Below are positions 10,153 to 19,795 of a DNA stretch of 64,000 bases, one piece after another. This DNA is from Lacibacter sp. H375 (GTDB lineage: Bacteria > Bacteroidota > Bacteroidia > Chitinophagales > Chitinophagaceae). The stretch lies in contig NZ_JBBKTT010000001.1 in NCBI RefSeq assembly GCF_037892425.1, positions 620,001-684,000 of the forward strand, in the 5' to 3' direction. The position numbers and the translations under genes are program-made. The notes under the pieces were generated by a model. That model made no database searches. It worked only from the letters and a program-made list of their open reading frames with translations, and was not told where the DNA came from. Every line of letters begins with the position of its first letter. The stretch's first letter is position 1.

Positions 10153-10187
10153 AATAAAGCGACCCGCCTCGGCGGGTCACTTTATTT
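10153..10187. terminator. Bidirectional terminator between hemL and the PepSY gene
   Basis: GACCCGCC / GGCGGGTC stem with a TC loop at 10161-10178, flanked by AATAAAG and CTTTATT that extend the pairing. The two genes converge, so it can serve both. Confidence 0.85.
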
Positions 10188-11493
10188 ATGCTACTTTTTC
10201 ATCACCTGTTAATGCAACAACAGGTTCTTCTTTTTTGTTTTTCGTTTTCTTCTTCATCTTGTTCAGCCAGATCATTGTACCTGTGATCGGCAAACTCGTT
10301 GCGATCAGGCAAGCAAGGAAATAAAGAATCTTCGTAAACGTACCATATACATTTCCAACGTGAATGGCCTTGATAGAACCAGCCACTCGTTCATTAAAAG
10401 GTTTCTTCTTAAAAATATCCAGCTTCACCACTTTCCCATTCTTTGGATCCATGGTAATTCTGTCGCCCGCAGCAGGAGCAAAGAAGCCCAGCTTTGTTTT
10501 TGTGATCATTGTTTTTGCATCTGCATCGGCAGGTAATGTGATCACATAATTTCCATTATACGCTAATAATTTATCCGCTTCTTTTACATAATCAGCAATT
10601 GATAACTGGACAGTAGCTAACGCTGTTGTATCTGCTGCAACTTCTTTCTTTCCTTCGCCTTCTTTGCGTTCGCTTTTTGCTTGTCCTTCTTTACGCTCTC
10701 CTCCTTTTCCTGCTTCAACTGGTTTGTATGTGCCCAGTGTTTTCTGTAATCCTTTTCTATACCATTCAAACGACCATTGCGGACCGGTCAATCCCATCAA
10801 CAATAAAAAGATCAATGAATAAAATGCAAGACTGTTATGCAAGTCATGATTCACACGTTTCCATCCGGCATTCCATTTTATTTTTAATCCTTGTCGCCAA
10901 TGTTTTACTTTTTGTGGAAACCAGATGATCAAACCTGTAATACATCCCAGAGTAAAAATGATCGTTGCCCAACCTGTGATCATACTTCCCAGCTTCCTGT
11001 TTTCCAAACCATCGATGATAGGTTTCTTCACTTTATCCAATAACAACCAACGATGTAAACTGAACATCGTTCCCATAAATTCTTTGGTACCATTCTTTTC
11101 TTTGGAGTTGCCAACGATAGCGCCTGTGTATGGATTCACCATATAGGTTGTGCCACCTCTCGCTGTGCTGTCTTCCTTCTTCTTTACATTGAATTGATAA
11201 GTTCGGTTTAACTCTGCAGGAATCGTCACACTTGCAATAGTGCCGCCTGTTTCCTGTTTTACTTTTTCTAATAGCGAATCAACAGGAATACGTTCTTTAC
11301 CTGTAACAGGTTGCACTTTGTATAAATGCGGCGCAGCTTTTTCAGTAAGCTCCGTATTAAAAACATATACTGTTCCGCTAAAACAAACAGCAATTACAAT
11401 TAATGCACTGCTGAGTCCCAACCAGAGATGTATGTCATTAAACAACTTTCTTATTCTTTGCCACCTGGTTTTTTGTGTGGTTATTTTGGCCAT
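10186..11493 (-). CDS. PepSY-associated transmembrane protein
   Basis: 435 residues of the PepSY_TM family. The N-terminal helix ALIVIAVCFSGTVYVF follows an IHLWLGL segment with a likely heme-ligand histidine; two more helices surround ITGWATIIFTLGCITGLIIWFP and the SLAFYSLIFLLLMGLTGP region, and a last helix is near KILYFLACLIATSLPITG. A charged low-complexity insert (GKGGERKEGQAKSERKEGEG) lies in the soluble part. Relatives are found beside siderophore receptors and some act as ferric-siderophore reductases; here it follows a TonB receptor on the same strand, so a role in iron release is inferred. A strong hairpin at 11533-11571 separates it from the receptor gene. Confidence 0.88.
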   Translation of the reverse strand: MAKITTQKTRWQRIRKLFNDIHLWLGLSSALIVIAVCFSGTVYVFNTELTEKAAPHLYKVQPVTGKERIPVDSLLEKVKQETGGTIASVTIPAELNRTYQFNVKKKEDSTARGGTTYMVNPYTGAIVGNSKEKNGTKEFMGTMFSLHRWLLLDKVKKPIIDGLENRKLGSMITGWATIIFTLGCITGLIIWFPQKVKHWRQGLKIKWNAGWKRVNHDLHNSLAFYSLIFLLLMGLTGPQWSFEWYRKGLQKTLGTYKPVEAGKGGERKEGQAKSERKEGEGKKEVAADTTALATVQLSIADYVKEADKLLAYNGNYVITLPADADAKTMITKTKLGFFAPAAGDRITMDPKNGKVVKLDIFKKKPFNERVAGSIKAIHVGNVYGTFTKILYFLACLIATSLPITGTMIWLNKMKKKTKNKKEEPVVALTGDEKVA

Positions 11494-11593: not shown

Positions 11594-14053
11594 TTAGAAT
11601 TTGTAAGAAACAGTTGCTACAAAATTACGTGGCGGAATCGGGTTGATGCTATAATTCTCATGCACGTAATAATTATATGTATTAGTGATATTCGCAAGCT
11701 TAGCAAGTACCGATACTTTTTTATAAGTGTAGCCAACACTTGCATCAATTGTATTGAAACCGTTGATGCCAAAACTTCTGTTCAAGATGCTGCCGTTTGC
11801 CTGGTATGTGTCGTTCCAACCCACAACACGGTCGCCAATATAGTTATACACGAATCCAAATTTCAAACTCTTCAATGTTCCTTTTCCAACAGTGTAAAAA
11901 GCGGATGCATTGGCTGTGTGTTGAGGTGTGTTTACCAAACGCTGACCTTCCACAAAACTTCCGTTTCCTTTGTTGGTTTTGTTGTAGTACATATGATTAT
12001 AGCTGTAACCCGCTACAACAAACAATCCTTCAACGGGGCGACCCTGGATATCCACTTCAATACCTTGACTGATCGTTTGTCCGCTCAATTGTTTAATGGC
12101 TGTATTTGTATTTGGATTACCGTTTGCATCTTCCAATGCTATCACAGGAAAGTTGTTATTGATGATCTGGTAAAGCGTAAGGTTTGCACTCAGCTTTCTT
12201 TCAAAGAAATCATTTTTGATACCCAGCTCAAACTGATCAATGATTGAAGGTTTTAATGGATTGAAAAAAATATCCGTACCTGTGTTAGGTGTAAACGAGT
12301 TTGCATAACTCGCAAACAACGACATCTTTTCAGTTGGCTGATAGACCAATCCCACTCTTGGAGAAAAAGCCTTATCAATTTGTGCTTTAGTATAAGCTAC
12401 TGAATCATTTTTCAACAGGTAAGTTGTTTTTGTTGGATCTGTATGTTGGTAAGACCAACGAACCCCGGCAAGCAATTTCAATTTCTTTGTAATAGCAACC
12501 AAGTCCTGCACATAAACACCAAAACGTGTTACAGGTATTTCTGCACGTGTGCTCCATACTGCATTTGGAATATCTGTTCGTTGAACAAATTTCGAAGGAT
12601 CTAAAATATTAATTGTGTCGTAAATAGTTCCTGTGATAGCAGATGCAAGGTTTGCTGTTTGATACTGATCTGCGTCAATACCTGCAAGCAGTTTATGGTA
12701 CATTCCGCCGGTTTTAAATTCACCGGTTAAATTCACCTGTGCTGCATAGTAATCTTCTTTGTTATCGAACTTACCAAGCGGACGCTTCCATTTTCCTGTA
12801 GGATCGGCCTGTATTCTTTCAACTGAATAATAATCTCTGTGGTAAAATGCTTTTGATACACCTCCACTCAACTGCCAATCGCTGTTAAAACGATGTTCAA
12901 CTTCGGAACCAACTGTAGATTGAATTGTGTGCGTATACTGCCAATTAGTACCCATAAATCTTGAGCGGGGTACATCAGCTATTTGTTTACCTACATTGGT
13001 AGAAGACGTTGTGCCAATCGTTCCGATACCAAAGTCAGGAGTAAAATCATGCTTCAAATAATCACCCTGTACAATTAATGTTGTTTTATCGCCAAGGTTA
13101 AACAATAACGAAGGGTTTACATAATAACGTTTTGAGGTTACAGACTCCCTGAAACTGTTAGCTGATTCACAAGTACCGTTAACCCTGAAGGCAATTTTCT
13201 TTGACAATGGACCATACACATCGAATGCTGGTTTGTATAAATCAAAACTTCCGGTTCGCATACTCACTTCACCACCAAAATCGAATTTTGGTTTTTTGCT
13301 ACGCATGTTTACAATACCGCCCGGAGCAACGTTACCATAAAGAATAGCTGCACTTCCTTTTAATACTTCTACACTTTCCAAAGAGCTGACTTCAGGCATT
13401 GCACCGCTGTTGATGCGGAAACCATTTTTAAACATGTTGTTATTGCCAAAGCTGTAACCTCTTGCATAAAACGCTTCCTGCGTATTACCACGGGTTGTAC
13501 CTAAATAAACACCGTTTACATTTTTAATCACATCGCTCAAACGCTGCGCCTGTTGGTTACGAATTACCGGCTCTCCGATAATTGCAACAGCCTGTGGCAG
13601 ATCCATTGATTTGATGTTCACTTTCCCAACAGAAGTAATTTTTTCATTTGCATTGCTTGATGATCTGATGATGATTTCTTCTAATTCAGTTTCATTTTCA
13701 GTTAATACAAAATCTTGGATTGCAGACTCCCCTTTTTTGATTTCTATAACAGCTTCCACTGTTTTCAACCCGGTAAATGAAACAATAAGGGTGTATCGAC
13801 CTTCAGGAACAGAATAAAAGAAATATTCACCGGCATCGTTGGTGATGGTTCCCTTATTGGTTTCCTTCATGATAATATTCACAAAACCGGCAGGTTTTCC
13901 ATCCTTTGTACGTACAATACCCTTTACTATGGGAGCAGGAGTAGGATTTGTCACCAAAGTGTGGTTTGCAGCACCTGTATTATTTAAATTATTTTGAGCT
14001 GATACTGATAAACTGATAAGTCCGAGACTAAGCGTTAGTAATGTCCGATTCAT
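11594..14053 (-). CDS. TonB-dependent siderophore receptor with carboxypeptidase-like N-terminal domain
   Basis: 819 residues. A signal peptide (MNRTLLTLSLGLISLSVSAQ) is followed by a carboxypeptidase-regulatory-like domain (VKGIVRTKDGKPAGFVNIIM to about residue 125), then a plug domain (GEPVIRNQQAQRLSDVIKNV; YARGYSFGNNNMFKNG; VEVLKGSAAILYGNVAPGG), and a 22-strand barrel ending in FVATVSYKF. The plug motifs are those of the FhuA/FhuE/FpvA-type siderophore receptors, so the cargo is probably an iron chelate; the exact ligand cannot be read. The promoter carries the tandem operator at 14101-14141 and a GAAATTTG -7 box at 14075-14082. PepSY gene follows. Confidence 0.93.
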   Translation of the reverse strand: MNRTLLTLSLGLISLSVSAQNNLNNTGAANHTLVTNPTPAPIVKGIVRTKDGKPAGFVNIIMKETNKGTITNDAGEYFFYSVPEGRYTLIVSFTGLKTVEAVIEIKKGESAIQDFVLTENETELEEIIIRSSSNANEKITSVGKVNIKSMDLPQAVAIIGEPVIRNQQAQRLSDVIKNVNGVYLGTTRGNTQEAFYARGYSFGNNNMFKNGFRINSGAMPEVSSLESVEVLKGSAAILYGNVAPGGIVNMRSKKPKFDFGGEVSMRTGSFDLYKPAFDVYGPLSKKIAFRVNGTCESANSFRESVTSKRYYVNPSLLFNLGDKTTLIVQGDYLKHDFTPDFGIGTIGTTSSTNVGKQIADVPRSRFMGTNWQYTHTIQSTVGSEVEHRFNSDWQLSGGVSKAFYHRDYYSVERIQADPTGKWKRPLGKFDNKEDYYAAQVNLTGEFKTGGMYHKLLAGIDADQYQTANLASAITGTIYDTINILDPSKFVQRTDIPNAVWSTRAEIPVTRFGVYVQDLVAITKKLKLLAGVRWSYQHTDPTKTTYLLKNDSVAYTKAQIDKAFSPRVGLVYQPTEKMSLFASYANSFTPNTGTDIFFNPLKPSIIDQFELGIKNDFFERKLSANLTLYQIINNNFPVIALEDANGNPNTNTAIKQLSGQTISQGIEVDIQGRPVEGLFVVAGYSYNHMYYNKTNKGNGSFVEGQRLVNTPQHTANASAFYTVGKGTLKSLKFGFVYNYIGDRVVGWNDTYQANGSILNRSFGINGFNTIDASVGYTYKKVSVLAKLANITNTYNYYVHENYSINPIPPRNFVATVSYKF

Positions 14054-14100
14054 AATTCACATTTTATTCGGATGCAAATTTCACTTATCAACACCCATTT

Positions 14101-14141
14101 CATTTACACAATGAGGAAAAGCGTTTACGCAATACGAAAAC
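14101..14141 (-). promoter_or_regulatory. AraC-type tandem operator upstream of first TonB receptor
   Basis: Two direct repeats of TTTACRCAAT..G.AAAA begin at 14103 and 14124, 21 bp (two helical turns) apart. A near-identical element lies at 16528-16567 before the second receptor gene. The near edge is 18 bp from the putative -7 box in both cases. The adjacent AraC regulator (16592-17530) is the obvious candidate to bind. Confidence 0.75.
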
Positions 14142-14175
14142 AACGAGTTAGAAACCTTTTGAACAAAATGGCATA

Positions 14176-14207
14176 AAAAAAACTTCACAATAAGGTGAAG
14201 TTTTTTT
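14176..14207. terminator. Terminator after second TonB receptor gene
   Basis: AAAAACTTCAC / GTGAAGTTTTT hairpin with an AATAAG loop just after the stop of the gene ending at 14224; A and T runs on both sides make it bidirectional. Confidence 0.85.
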
Positions 14208-14223
14208 GATAATCTGTTCCAGT

Positions 14224-16482
14224 TTAGAATTTTGCTCCAACGCTGACGAAGAACGTCCTTCCATCTGCCGGCATTGCACCCGGACCCGGATAGCCGCCCG
14301 CCCTGCGTGTGAAATATTTTTCGTTTGTGAAATTATTAATACCTGCTTTGATATTTAGATTTTTATTGAAGCGATAAGACGCCGTTAAATCAGTAACAGT
14401 ATATGCAGGAATAATTCCGTTTTGTGCATTTGCTGTTGGTGCAACTGTATTGTTTGCATCGGCAAATGCATCACTTACATAGCTTACCTGTGTGGTGAAG
14501 GAAAATCCTTTGAACGAATAAGTTAAACCACTTCTTACAATATGCTCCGGTGCGTTTTCCACTTTTTTATTCTGCAGATTGCTTTCAACCAACTGGTTGC
14601 TGCTGTTCTTTGTTATCACTTTAAAGTTTCCATAACGGGCATCTGTGAAACCATAAGAAACAAACAGGTTAATATCGCCCCATGTTGATTTTTCAGTAAT
14701 TGCTTTTACCGGGCTGAATTCTACCAAGGCCTCAATTCCTTTGCTTGTGCTGTTGCCCACATTTGTACGATAGTTATAAAAACTTCCATCGGTGCGTTGT
14801 TGTACAATGGTGCCGATACGGTTATTGTATTGCAGGTAAAATGCACTTACATCAAAAAATAGATATGAACCAAAACGTCCACGGTAGCCTAAATCAGCAT
14901 TATACCCCTTCGCATCTTTAATATCCTGGTCCACAACATCGGTTGTGGGTGGCGCTGTTAAATCAGCAAACTGTACAGGGCGGTAAGCTTGTGTAATATT
15001 TGCATAGAGTTCGCTCATTGATGTAACATGATATTCTGCTCCTACGCCGGCAAGAACAAATCCACGGCTGCGTTTTTGATTCTGTAACAACACTTCATTT
15101 CCGGCACTGAAACCATTTCGTCCGCTTGCTTGTCCGGTAATATATTCATAACGTAACCCGGGGATAATGATCAACTTTTCAGAAATTCTGAAAATGTTTT
15201 CTGCATGTAAAGCTGCATTGATCGTATTGAAGTCAATATCTCTTGTCCAGATACCGTCACTCACCCTCATATCATAATCTGTTCCTGTAGTTCCTTTTCC
15301 ATCAGCTGCATAACGGAGTGTTGTGCCTTTGTATAAACGCCCGCCCAATGAAAATGAGTTGTTCATTTTACCAAGCTTGTAGGCGCCGAGATAACGTACT
15401 TCCAATCCATAATTCCTGTAATCATCTTCGTTCAGGTTACGTGCATTGTATTGATTGGTGGTTTTGTTGATGGTATCCTTTACAATTATTCCCGCAGATG
15501 GCATAAAGCCAACACTGTTCCTGTCGCCATGTACTGCAAATAACTTTACATTCAAACGTGAATTTTCACTGAATTTATAATTGCTGATTAGTGCGGCAGT
15601 TGTCCAGGTAACATCAAACCAGTTCCGGCTTCTGAAACTTTGTTTGATATCTTGTTTCAATTGCGCATCTGTTAATCCACCAGGTTGCTGGCTACGCATG
15701 TTGCTGCGCATCAACTCTGCAGTAATCGAAAATTTATCAGTAAAACGATAAGTAAATGTTCCGAAGCCGGAGTTATTATAGTAACGGCTGTTCTGCCTGT
15801 ATCCATCTGCGTTACGATGGTCAAAGAAACCATAGTAATGATATTTCTTTGTTTCACCACCTACAGCATTATAACTATTAAACAAGCCGTTGCTGCCAAT
15901 GGTTTGTTGTGTTTCAAACTCAAACGGTTTATTAATCTCACTACCGTTTCGTAAAATATAATTAACCATGCCGCCAAACTGCGGACCGTATTGGAGCGAA
16001 CCATGCCCTCTTATAATTTCAATCCGTTGAACTGCCTGTAACTGCGGATTGTAGTATGCTTCCGGATAACCGTAAGGATCGGCAGCAATATCATAACCGT
16101 TTTGTCTTGTATTAAACTCCCAGCTGCGGTTAGGGCTCAATCCTCTTGCAGCAATACCGATCTGTATACCACTGCCATCACTTTCCCAAATTTGAATACC
16201 GGGAATTTTAGCTACCACTTGCCGCATGGTATTGGTAACTACGTTTCCCTGCACATTATCAACTACAATTAATGAGTTCTTCTTACCCGCATTGATATTT
16301 ACACCAACAATTTCCGGTAAGAAATGTACATCAGCACGGCTGTTACGGCCAACCACTGTTATGTCGGCCAGGTATTTTGTATGGAGACGACTGCTGTCTG
16401 TTTTTGTTGAATCCTGTTGAGCTGTTGTTTGTAAAGCTATTATTGCCAGGCAAATTGTGATAATGGTTCTGTTCATGTTCAT
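14224..16482 (-). CDS. TonB-dependent receptor, FecA-like
   Basis: 752 residues from MNMNRTIITICLAIIALQ, a signal peptide; an ATG two codons later is equally possible and a start at 16521 is too far upstream and would translate the promoter. Unlike its neighbour it lacks the carboxypeptidase-like domain. The plug reads IAARGLSPNRSWEFNTRQNG, DPYGYPEAYYNPQLQAVQRI and RGHGSLQYGPQFGGMVNYIL; the YGPQ-GG-VNY pattern is that of the ferric citrate receptor FecA and relatives. The barrel ends FFVSVGAKF. The tandem operator at 16528-16567 lies 46 bp before the start. Ferric citrate as cargo is a guess from the plug. Confidence 0.92.
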   Translation of the reverse strand: MNMNRTIITICLAIIALQTTAQQDSTKTDSSRLHTKYLADITVVGRNSRADVHFLPEIVGVNINAGKKNSLIVVDNVQGNVVTNTMRQVVAKIPGIQIWESDGSGIQIGIAARGLSPNRSWEFNTRQNGYDIAADPYGYPEAYYNPQLQAVQRIEIIRGHGSLQYGPQFGGMVNYILRNGSEINKPFEFETQQTIGSNGLFNSYNAVGGETKKYHYYGFFDHRNADGYRQNSRYYNNSGFGTFTYRFTDKFSITAELMRSNMRSQQPGGLTDAQLKQDIKQSFRSRNWFDVTWTTAALISNYKFSENSRLNVKLFAVHGDRNSVGFMPSAGIIVKDTINKTTNQYNARNLNEDDYRNYGLEVRYLGAYKLGKMNNSFSLGGRLYKGTTLRYAADGKGTTGTDYDMRVSDGIWTRDIDFNTINAALHAENIFRISEKLIIIPGLRYEYITGQASGRNGFSAGNEVLLQNQKRSRGFVLAGVGAEYHVTSMSELYANITQAYRPVQFADLTAPPTTDVVDQDIKDAKGYNADLGYRGRFGSYLFFDVSAFYLQYNNRIGTIVQQRTDGSFYNYRTNVGNSTSKGIEALVEFSPVKAITEKSTWGDINLFVSYGFTDARYGNFKVITKNSSNQLVESNLQNKKVENAPEHIVRSGLTYSFKGFSFTTQVSYVSDAFADANNTVAPTANAQNGIIPAYTVTDLTASYRFNKNLNIKAGINNFTNEKYFTRRAGGYPGPGAMPADGRTFFVSVGAKF

Positions 16483-16501
16483 TTCCAAGTTTAATCGGGG
16501 G

Positions 16502-16509
16502 CAAAGGTG
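16502..16509 (-). promoter_or_regulatory. -7 box of second TonB receptor gene
   Basis: CACCTTTG on the minus strand, 7 of 8 to TAnnTTTG, 18 bp from the tandem operator, the same spacing as at the first receptor gene. No -33 box is seen; an activator bound at the operator could replace it. Confidence 0.5.
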
Positions 16510-16527
16510 CGTTACAACCATTCAAAT

Positions 16528-16567
16528 CATTTACAGAATAAGGAAAACTGTTTACGCAATACGGAAA
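16528..16567 (-). promoter_or_regulatory. AraC-type tandem operator upstream of second TonB receptor
   Basis: TTTAC-based direct repeats start at 16530 and 16551, again 21 bp apart. About 34 of 40 positions agree with the element at 14101-14141, including the invariant GTTTACGCAATACG. Confidence 0.75.
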
Positions 16568-16591
16568 GCCTCAGAAAAAAATGAACAGGTA

Positions 16592-17530
16592 TTAGTTTGT
16601 TCTGAACAACAATTCACAAGGTTTCAGCCCTGTGTGTTTTTTAAACGCAGTAGAAAAGTGTGAGATAGAGGAATAACCGAGTAATGCACTTACTTCAGTA
16701 ACGCTTAATCCTTTTTCGTATAAAAGATATTTAGCGTGTTCCATACGTTGGCTTTGATAAAATTCGAAGATTGTAGTTCCGAACATTTCTTTGAACCCTT
16801 TTTTCAAATAACATTCGTTGGTACCCACTTTACGGCTCAATTCCTTAATGGTGATGGGCTCGCCAATACGTTGCAATAAAATTTCCCGGGCCTGCAGAAT
16901 GGTATCTTTTGCGTTATCTGTTGCAAGAAAACGGCAGACAAAACTTTCCTCGGCTTTCTGATCTGTTAAACATTCCAATCCATACAACAGCAATGTTTGC
17001 AACTGGCTGTTTACATAAATATTCTCGAGTGCATTACTGTAATTATGCTGTACCAGGTTATCCAATACCGTTCTTATACGGCTGCAAAGATTAACCGTTG
17101 TGCTGAACGATTGCTTCTCTTTAAACGCCAGCACACGCTCACTTTTTGTTGTAATAGTTTTACCCTTTACAAACGGAGTAAGGTAGGAAGGAGAAAAACG
17201 AAACATGAATACATCGATGGTGGGTTCTGCTATACAATCGGTTGAAGTTTTTTTACAAACCCCGTTTGCGCAGGTTTTGCTGTTGCAATATTTATTGCCG
17301 TTGATGCAGAAACGCAGCTCAATGTTTCGCTCCTTTGATTGCTTAGGTTGAGAATTGTACACAAGCACAGCTGTATCTTCCTGTGTAACATGTGGCAGCA
17401 ATTTGTAGCGATAAATGCCATACTGCACCGAGCCGGGAATTTGCTTTTCCTGCTCATACACCAAGTCCAGCTCATGCGTTAAGAGCGGGTTTCGGTTGGT
17501 GAGTGTGAGTAATTCGTTCAACTGCTGCAT
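16592..17530 (-). CDS. AraC family regulator with cysteine cluster
   Basis: 312 residues from the ATG at 17528-17530 (MQQLNELLTLTNRN); a longer frame to 17569 would run through the promoter. The C-terminal ~100 residues form the double helix-turn-helix of AraC (ITIKELSRKVGTNECYLKKGFKEM; LSVTEVSALLGYSSISHFSTAF). The N-terminal sensor half has five cysteines at 75, 82, 87, 92 and 99 (FCINGNKYC, KTCANGVCKK, TDC). Relatives next to siderophore receptors (PchR/YbtA type) activate receptor genes when the siderophore is present; here the matching operators before both receptor genes support that. The cysteines could bind metal or an Fe-S cluster, which is speculation. Confidence 0.9.
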   Translation of the reverse strand: MQQLNELLTLTNRNPLLTHELDLVYEQEKQIPGSVQYGIYRYKLLPHVTQEDTAVLVYNSQPKQSKERNIELRFCINGNKYCNSKTCANGVCKKTSTDCIAEPTIDVFMFRFSPSYLTPFVKGKTITTKSERVLAFKEKQSFSTTVNLCSRIRTVLDNLVQHNYSNALENIYVNSQLQTLLLYGLECLTDQKAEESFVCRFLATDNAKDTILQAREILLQRIGEPITIKELSRKVGTNECYLKKGFKEMFGTTIFEFYQSQRMEHAKYLLYEKGLSVTEVSALLGYSSISHFSTAFKKHTGLKPCELLFRTN

Positions 17531-17536
17531 CGGGTG

Positions 17537-17544
17537 CAAAGATA
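17537..17544 (-). promoter_or_regulatory. -7 box of the AraC gene, six bases before ATG
   Basis: TATCTTTG, exact consensus, then six bases, then ATG. Transcription would start at or next to the A of ATG, predicting a leaderless mRNA. Confidence 0.6.
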
Positions 17545-17713
17545 GGTCATAAAACAGGGCTACTATCATGGGCTATTGACAGAGTTTTGTCATGTTTTTG
17601 GCGTGAAAAAGAACCGATGTTTCGTCTCCTTTTTCAAGAATTCCACTACCTGTTTCAAACCCTTCATTTTCAGTAATAAAATTGTGGATTTCTTGATACA
17701 AAATCGGCTTTAA

Positions 17714-19795
<2,082 letters not shown>

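Follow-up and report, generated by a model that had tools for sequence, protein, structure and literature searches.

Two matching tandem elements precede two genes for TonB-dependent receptors in the window, the whole 64-kb stretch of DNA analysed here, and a gene for an AraC-family regulator lies next to them. We consider, with a probability of about three in four, that these elements are class II AraC operators of an iron-uptake regulon, bound by the adjacent AraC protein; binding, activation and iron sensing are what we infer. Across the family Chitinophagaceae, the element marks mostly genes predicted to serve iron and haem uptake, and to judge by these target genes the regulon would be for iron. 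Chitinophagaceae are common in soil and fresh water, and the control of iron uptake in this family is not described in the literature searched. In most of its members Fur, the usual iron regulator, seems from the sequences to be missing, and the AraC regulator may do the job done by Fur in other families of the class. Beyond the original prediction, the analysis provides a longer half-site, a family-wide set of sites mostly at iron-uptake genes, conserved cysteines in the regulator, and a family largely without canonical Fur. The outcome is a defined operator, a candidate regulator and a list of targets including uncharacterised outer-membrane and DUF proteins. It opens a direct test of whether, in one family, Fur gave way to an activator of the AraC type whose cysteine cluster possibly senses metal.

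Table 1. Operators, promoter boxes and genes of the window
Feature	Position	Strand	Remarks
Operator A, promoter-proximal half-site (TTTCCTCATTGTGTAAAT)	14102..14119	-	exact match to TTTYCNNATTNNGTAAAY
Operator A, promoter-distal half-site (TTTTCGTATTGCGTAAAC)	14123..14140	-	exact match; tandem pair, 21-bp period
Operator B, promoter-proximal half-site (TTTCCTTATTCTGTAAAT)	16529..16546	-	exact match to TTTYCNNATTNNGTAAAY
Operator B, promoter-distal half-site (TTTCCGTATTGCGTAAAC)	16550..16567	-	exact match; tandem pair, 21-bp period
Receptor A -7-like box GAAATTTG	14075..14082	-	TTTG at offset 23 from operator end
Receptor B -7-like box CACCTTTG	16502..16509	-	TTTG at offset 23 from operator end
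PepSY_TM protein, downstream of receptor A	10186..11493	-	PF03929 E 2.2e-57
Receptor A, TonB-dependent siderophore receptor with CarboxypepD_reg domain	11594..14053	-	PF00593, PF07715, PF13715
Perfect inverted repeat AAAAAAACTTCAC-AATAAG-GTGAAGTTTTTTT, T runs, after receptor B	14176..14207	.	arms verified
Receptor B, TonB-dependent siderophore/FecA-like	14224..16521	-	PF00593, PF07715
araC, AraC-family regulator	16592..17569	-	PF12833 E 3.3e-20, PF00165 E 5.9e-12
gyrB, divergent to araC	17798-19795		named by sequence and position

The genes follow each other on the minus strand in the order araC, receptor B, receptor A, PepSY_TM (Table 1). Against TIGR01783, whose cut-off is 223.5 bits, receptor A scores above (278.5 bits) and receptor B below (157.9 bits). 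The PepSY_TM protein we take, from the role associated with its family, to be perhaps a ferrisiderophore reductase. The araC start is probably the ATG at 17530 (312 aa), where the alignment of related sequences begins; the protein has its cysteine cluster in the N-terminal part. For receptor B the longest ORF would start at 16521, ahead of the -7 box, so that translation probably begins at the ATG at 16482. The inverted repeat after receptor B is absent from the output of a consensus scan; it is probably a terminator that ends the receptor B transcript and separates the two transcripts, in which case a separate promoter would be required for each receptor.

The elements at 14101-14141 and 16528-16568 share 35 of their 41 bases (for the first 40 bases the count is also 35, where the original prediction had about 34), and the next-best place for the element on both strands of the window reaches 25/41. 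Both are oriented on the minus strand, toward the receptor genes, and consist of two tandem copies of an 18-bp half-site, TTTYCNNATTNNGTAAAY, with a period of 21 bp when the repeats are aligned. Each half-site contains two boxes, TTTYC and GTAAAY. The TTTAC-type repeats first put forward as the half-site are real and have the 21-bp spacing given for them, but they are only part of the 18-bp unit. Exact matches to TTTYCNNATTNNGTAAAY number four in the 64 kb, all in operators A and B, while at up to 2 mismatches there are 6 for 5.6 expected; the half-site signal is hence carried by exactness and pairing. In the 5.08-Mb genome to which the window belongs, the tandem pattern with up to 3 mismatches finds two sites, both exact and both in the window, and its reversed control none. 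The genome-wide search for the pair that had been proposed, run at 21-bp spacing, thus returns the two window sites only, as does a relaxed pattern with TTYG at +23. Occurrence at many unrelated genes or in coding sequence at chance frequency, which had been named as the refuting case, is absent in this genome, and in the family 5 of the 121 sites examined lie within an ORF of at least 150 aa. The 64-kb scan detected no exact half-site upstream of araC itself.

Recurrence of the element was analysed in 294 genomes of the family. The tandem pattern, with up to 3 mismatches, gave 124 sites in 82 genomes versus 1 match for the reversed control; since this pattern itself imposes the 21-bp period, the family-wide evidence lies solely in the surplus of 124 sites to 1. 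The relaxed pattern with TTYG at +23 was dropped for the counts: it occurred in 180 of the 294 genomes, but its reversed control in about 60. The 121 sites examined are the 124 minus two (genomes G086 and G215) and one duplicate identical over 100 bases. They are distributed as follows: 5 without mismatch, 12 with one, 29 with two and 75 with three.

Downstream of these sites a TTTG is found at an offset of 23 bp in 73 cases and 24 bp in 23 cases, and any other single offset in at most 6. A TTTG at 23 or 24 bp accompanies 5/5, 12/12, 22/29 and 57/75 of the sites with zero, one, two and three mismatches respectively, so that the 25 of 121 sites without it all have 2-3 mismatches. As the -7 box is absent from the search pattern, this spacing is independent evidence. 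In the logo of the 96 sites with fixed spacing, the -7 box reads TAnnTTTGC, with T at 47% and A at 81% before the TTTG, and positions that the pattern left open are conserved as well (C 85% at position 11, G 53% at position 10). The logo has no counterpart of a -33 box in the stretch that separates the operator from the -7 box. By its sequence, the -7 box would be of the Bacteroidetes form; for sigma A of Flavobacterium psychrophilum, TAnnTTTG at -12 to -5 is reported (PMC9723704). A sigma-70 promoter scan listed no promoter at either window operator, as expected for a Bacteroidetes promoter. In both window promoters 19 bp separate the inner half-site from the -7-like box; the 18 bp first given reflects another choice of edge, and the distance is indeed fixed in both.

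This is the arrangement of a class II promoter: the operator occupies the -33/-35 place, its spacing is fixed in 96/121 sites, and the -33 element is poor. The original prediction of a class II site common to two unlike receptors agrees, at the level of sequence, with the spacing, the absent -33 box, the 21-bp repeats and the adjacent araC. The AraC protein would occupy both half-sites, whose two boxes, about one turn apart, suit two helix-turn-helix motifs per monomer. The half-sites are repeated in the same direction with a period of two DNA turns (21 bp), and the inner subunit would sit at the would-be -33 box. As the promoters have no good -33 box and offer only a -7 box of the TAnnTTTG type, RNA polymerase is most likely brought to them by the protein at the operator. 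The two operators would start both receptor transcripts at once but separately, receptor A together with its PepSY_TM partner.

To characterize the genes under the element, the first downstream ORFs were considered. Seven of the 121 sites have no ORF by our rule, leaving 114, and two sites share one, leaving 113 distinct ORFs. A TonB-receptor plug domain was detected in 67 of the 113 (38/56 + 29/57) and PepSY_TM in 9 (3 + 6), both at E <= 1e-5. In blastp against the window proteins 76 of the 114 ORFs match (receptor A 46, receptor B 20, PepSY protein 10), compared to 1 of 38 ORFs at decoy places, which are 30 loci of the own genome found with a mis-spaced pattern (spacer one base short). Two ABM proteins also follow the operator, and the one scanned resembles models of the haem-degrading HmuQ/IsdG, below their cut-offs. 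Other first ORFs encode DUF6607 (3), DUF4856 (2), DUF6686 (2) and a periplasmic binding protein (1), and single cases with no evident link to iron are ankyrin, PKD/CHU_C, HPP, S41 peptidase and CDP-alcohol transferase proteins. In 8 loci the gene directly following the operator encodes a member of an unannotated family of about 410 aa, one copy being cut short.

The loci of the ~410-aa family are L134, L141, L159, L160, L162, L180, L192 and, in part, L075. Its members look outer-membrane-like by eye, and relatives follow araC in two named loci (L233:7665-8855 and L245:5969-7147). No NCBIfam match was found for the four scanned (L134, L141, L160, L180) and no Pfam match for three (L134, L141, L180). 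Among the DUF proteins, DUF6607 (L135, L174, L185), DUF4856 (L175, L184), DUF6686 (L138), DUF6662 (L161) and a homologue in L194 have the TTTG at offset 23 in all eight loci. The DUF proteins of these eight loci are candidate members of the iron regulon.

The regulator shows two features of AraC/XylS proteins: a C-terminal domain with two helix-turn-helix motifs, found by PF12833, by PF00165 and by fold, and a candidate operator of direct repeats that are spaced by about two turns (21-bp period at both window sites). A structure model was obtained (mean pLDDT 77.4, pTM 0.55). The fold of its DNA-binding domain matches AraT, YesN, MarA, Rns and ToxT with TM-scores by target length of 0.70-0.85 for domain-only entries, while full-length matches (Rns, ToxT) are poor (0.3-0.4). 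No sequence match of the sensor part to solved structures was found, all 17 matches falling within residues 209-312. A sensor-domain profile run on 345 genomes of the class matches 7 at E <= 1e-8, all of them Chitinophagaceae; among the 8 family genomes in this class sample, G031 alone has no match.

In the family, an AraC match at E <= 1e-30 is present in 272 of 294 genomes, classed by hand into 218 strong and 54 weak matches (about 1e-31 to 1e-46). The 22 genomes without match include two taken to be G280 and G287, which stand in no row. The own genome has 25 AraC-type matches in all, the next best of which scores 69 bits vs 695. Gene context and cysteines were considered in the best 80 of 487 araC loci, which carry Chitinophagaceae names or broader Bacteroidetes labels. 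The cysteine alignment has 80 rows, the window and 79 loci (L293 being too short), all among the closest relatives. In these relatives Cys75, 82, 92, 99, 187, 240 and 305 are present in 80/80 sequences and Cys149 and Cys199 in 79/80, and an extra cysteine column near position 89 is occupied in 70/80. From this conservation we hypothesise that the regulator probably senses iron status, an Fe-S cluster or the redox state through these cysteines. A search for iron-sulphur AraC regulators gave no relevant paper, as judged by abstracts.

The distribution of Fur (PF01475) was compared between the family and the rest of the class. PF01475 matches in 219 of 294 family genomes but reaches E <= 2e-16 (at least 89 bits) in only 4, the next best being 58 bits, whereas in the rest of the class sample it matches in 314 of 337 genomes, 307 of them at E <= 2e-16; the contrast is mostly that of one family with the rest, so that a single evolutionary event may underlie it. 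The four family genomes with canonical Fur are three of genus g32 without AraC match (G031, G125, G192) and G245, which has 6% contamination and does have the AraC. The other two g32 genomes have neither AraC match nor canonical Fur. Canonical Fur is thus present in 3 of the 22 genomes without AraC match and in 0 of the 54 with a weak one; the mutual exclusion of AraC and Fur is imperfect. The window's genome lacks the canonical Fur expected for a Fur regulon: its one PF01475 match scores 56.6 bits over positions 2-96 of 121, canonical ones being listed at about 90-112 bits, and among NCBIfam models it comes nearest to Zur, at a score well under the cut-off. A Fur role for this protein is, on these scores, unlikely. 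Its gene (G000:C1:1410137-1410433, locus L215) lies near SCO1/SenC- and MerC-like genes, both recognised by eye.

The fullest form of our reading is that this cysteine-cluster AraC, found only within the family in the class sample, replaced Fur as the global iron control, being an activator under starvation that senses iron or Fe-S directly; we put it forward tentatively, at somewhat below even odds. Such a regulator would resemble Fur in its broad control of iron uptake. Fur, however, is an unrelated protein and an iron-loaded repressor (PMC9478572), and here the direct-repeat operator at -33 points to activation. The same source describes MliR of Bizionia argentinensis, likewise a non-Fur iron regulator and proposed activator of a Bacteroidetes species, which is MerR-like and without conserved cysteines (PMC9478572); its protein family is unrelated. 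An AraC-family gene, BT1385, is listed in the iron-dependent stimulon of Bacteroides thetaiotaomicron (PMC10434189). No description of the present regulator or operator was found in the literature searched, of which subscription journals were mostly no part.

YbtA and AlcR are AraC-type activators of siderophore uptake genes. The AraC protein of the window could be of this type, i.e. sense one ferric siderophore and activate its uptake, another protein sensing iron status. This is the main rival reading, possible but unlikely. PchR, the pyochelin regulator of Pseudomonas aeruginosa, is an AraC-type activator of siderophore uptake genes that needs pyochelin-Fe(III) (PMC8477383), and in the window araC does lie beside two receptor genes and a PepSY_TM gene. 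This neighbourhood is not general: in the best 80 of 487 loci, araC is mostly beside gyrB (divergent in 58 of 75 loci with enough sequence), and only 14 of 77 loci encode, in the 3 kb downstream of it, a homologue of a receptor or of the PepSY protein, our measure of a siderophore system beside the regulator (only homologues of the window proteins were counted). On this count we gave up the idea of a receptor gene as the constant neighbour of araC. Furthermore, a strong match to the regulator is present in 218/294 family genomes and a weak one in a further 54, and the operator also precedes unlike receptors, HmuQ/IsdG-like ABM proteins and others. PchR, likened here by description, serves one siderophore and works with Fur (PMC8477383); here a single conserved regulator with a cysteine cluster has many likely targets of differing kinds, in a family where canonical Fur is mostly absent.

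The link between the regulator and the element was examined by position and by co-occurrence. A profile built from the 96 sites, run on the best 80 of 487 araC loci, gave 25 matches (shuffled-sequence control: 1). Of these, 14 fall in the 63.5 kb made up by the first 800 bp behind araC, 1 in the 421 kb upstream of it, 9 in 371 kb further downstream and 1 at the araC end; this count is partly circular, as several loci are training loci, and three loci give neighbouring pairs. Among the 218 genomes with a strong AraC match, 72 have sites with up to 3 mismatches and 37 have sites with up to 2; among the 76 with a weak match or none, the corresponding numbers are 10 (6 and 4) and 2 (Fisher p about 0.0006 and 0.0007, uncorrected for kinship). 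Against the link, 146 of the 218 strong-AraC genomes contain no match within 3 mismatches of the pattern, which is derived from the window.

It could be proposed that araC is a mere neighbour and that the element is bound by another regulator: a second AraC-type protein, a Fur-family protein or one of unknown kind. With 25 AraC-type matches in the genome another such protein could bind it, the nearly palindromic half-site could suit a dimer of another kind of protein, a Fur-family protein is present, and 10 of the 76 genomes that lack a strong orthologue carry the site all the same. We hold this improbable in view of the concentration of the element directly behind araC in other genera, its co-occurrence with strong orthologues at the p values above, to be read without correction for kinship, and the 21-bp direct repeats, which suit AraC proteins.

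Returning to activation by the adjacent AraC protein, its mode of action has also been weighed against repression, in which the bound protein would cover the -33 region. The operator does overlie the -33 position in 96/121 sites. However, with no conserved -33 box there is little native promoter to repress, and a -7 spacing fixed to 1 bp is needed for activation and not for repression, which makes repression very unlikely. A recent local duplication of the promoter, the likeness being functionless, has a negligible chance and was rejected: the two copies are 2.4 kb apart and identical at 35/41 bases, but their flanks differ, the element recurs with fixed spacing in 82/294 family genomes, and in a genus-mate it is intact before a diverged receptor A.

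In this genus-mate (G292) receptor A is 58% identical to that of the window, receptor B 97% and the PepSY_TM protein 91%. Despite the divergence of receptor A its operator (L064) is without mismatch to the pattern, which looks like an exchange of the receptor with its control left unchanged. Divergent copies of the operator, 46-47 bp apart from start to start, were observed at L102 and L103 in two genomes of one genus (G114 and G185), and G114 has a third copy nearby.
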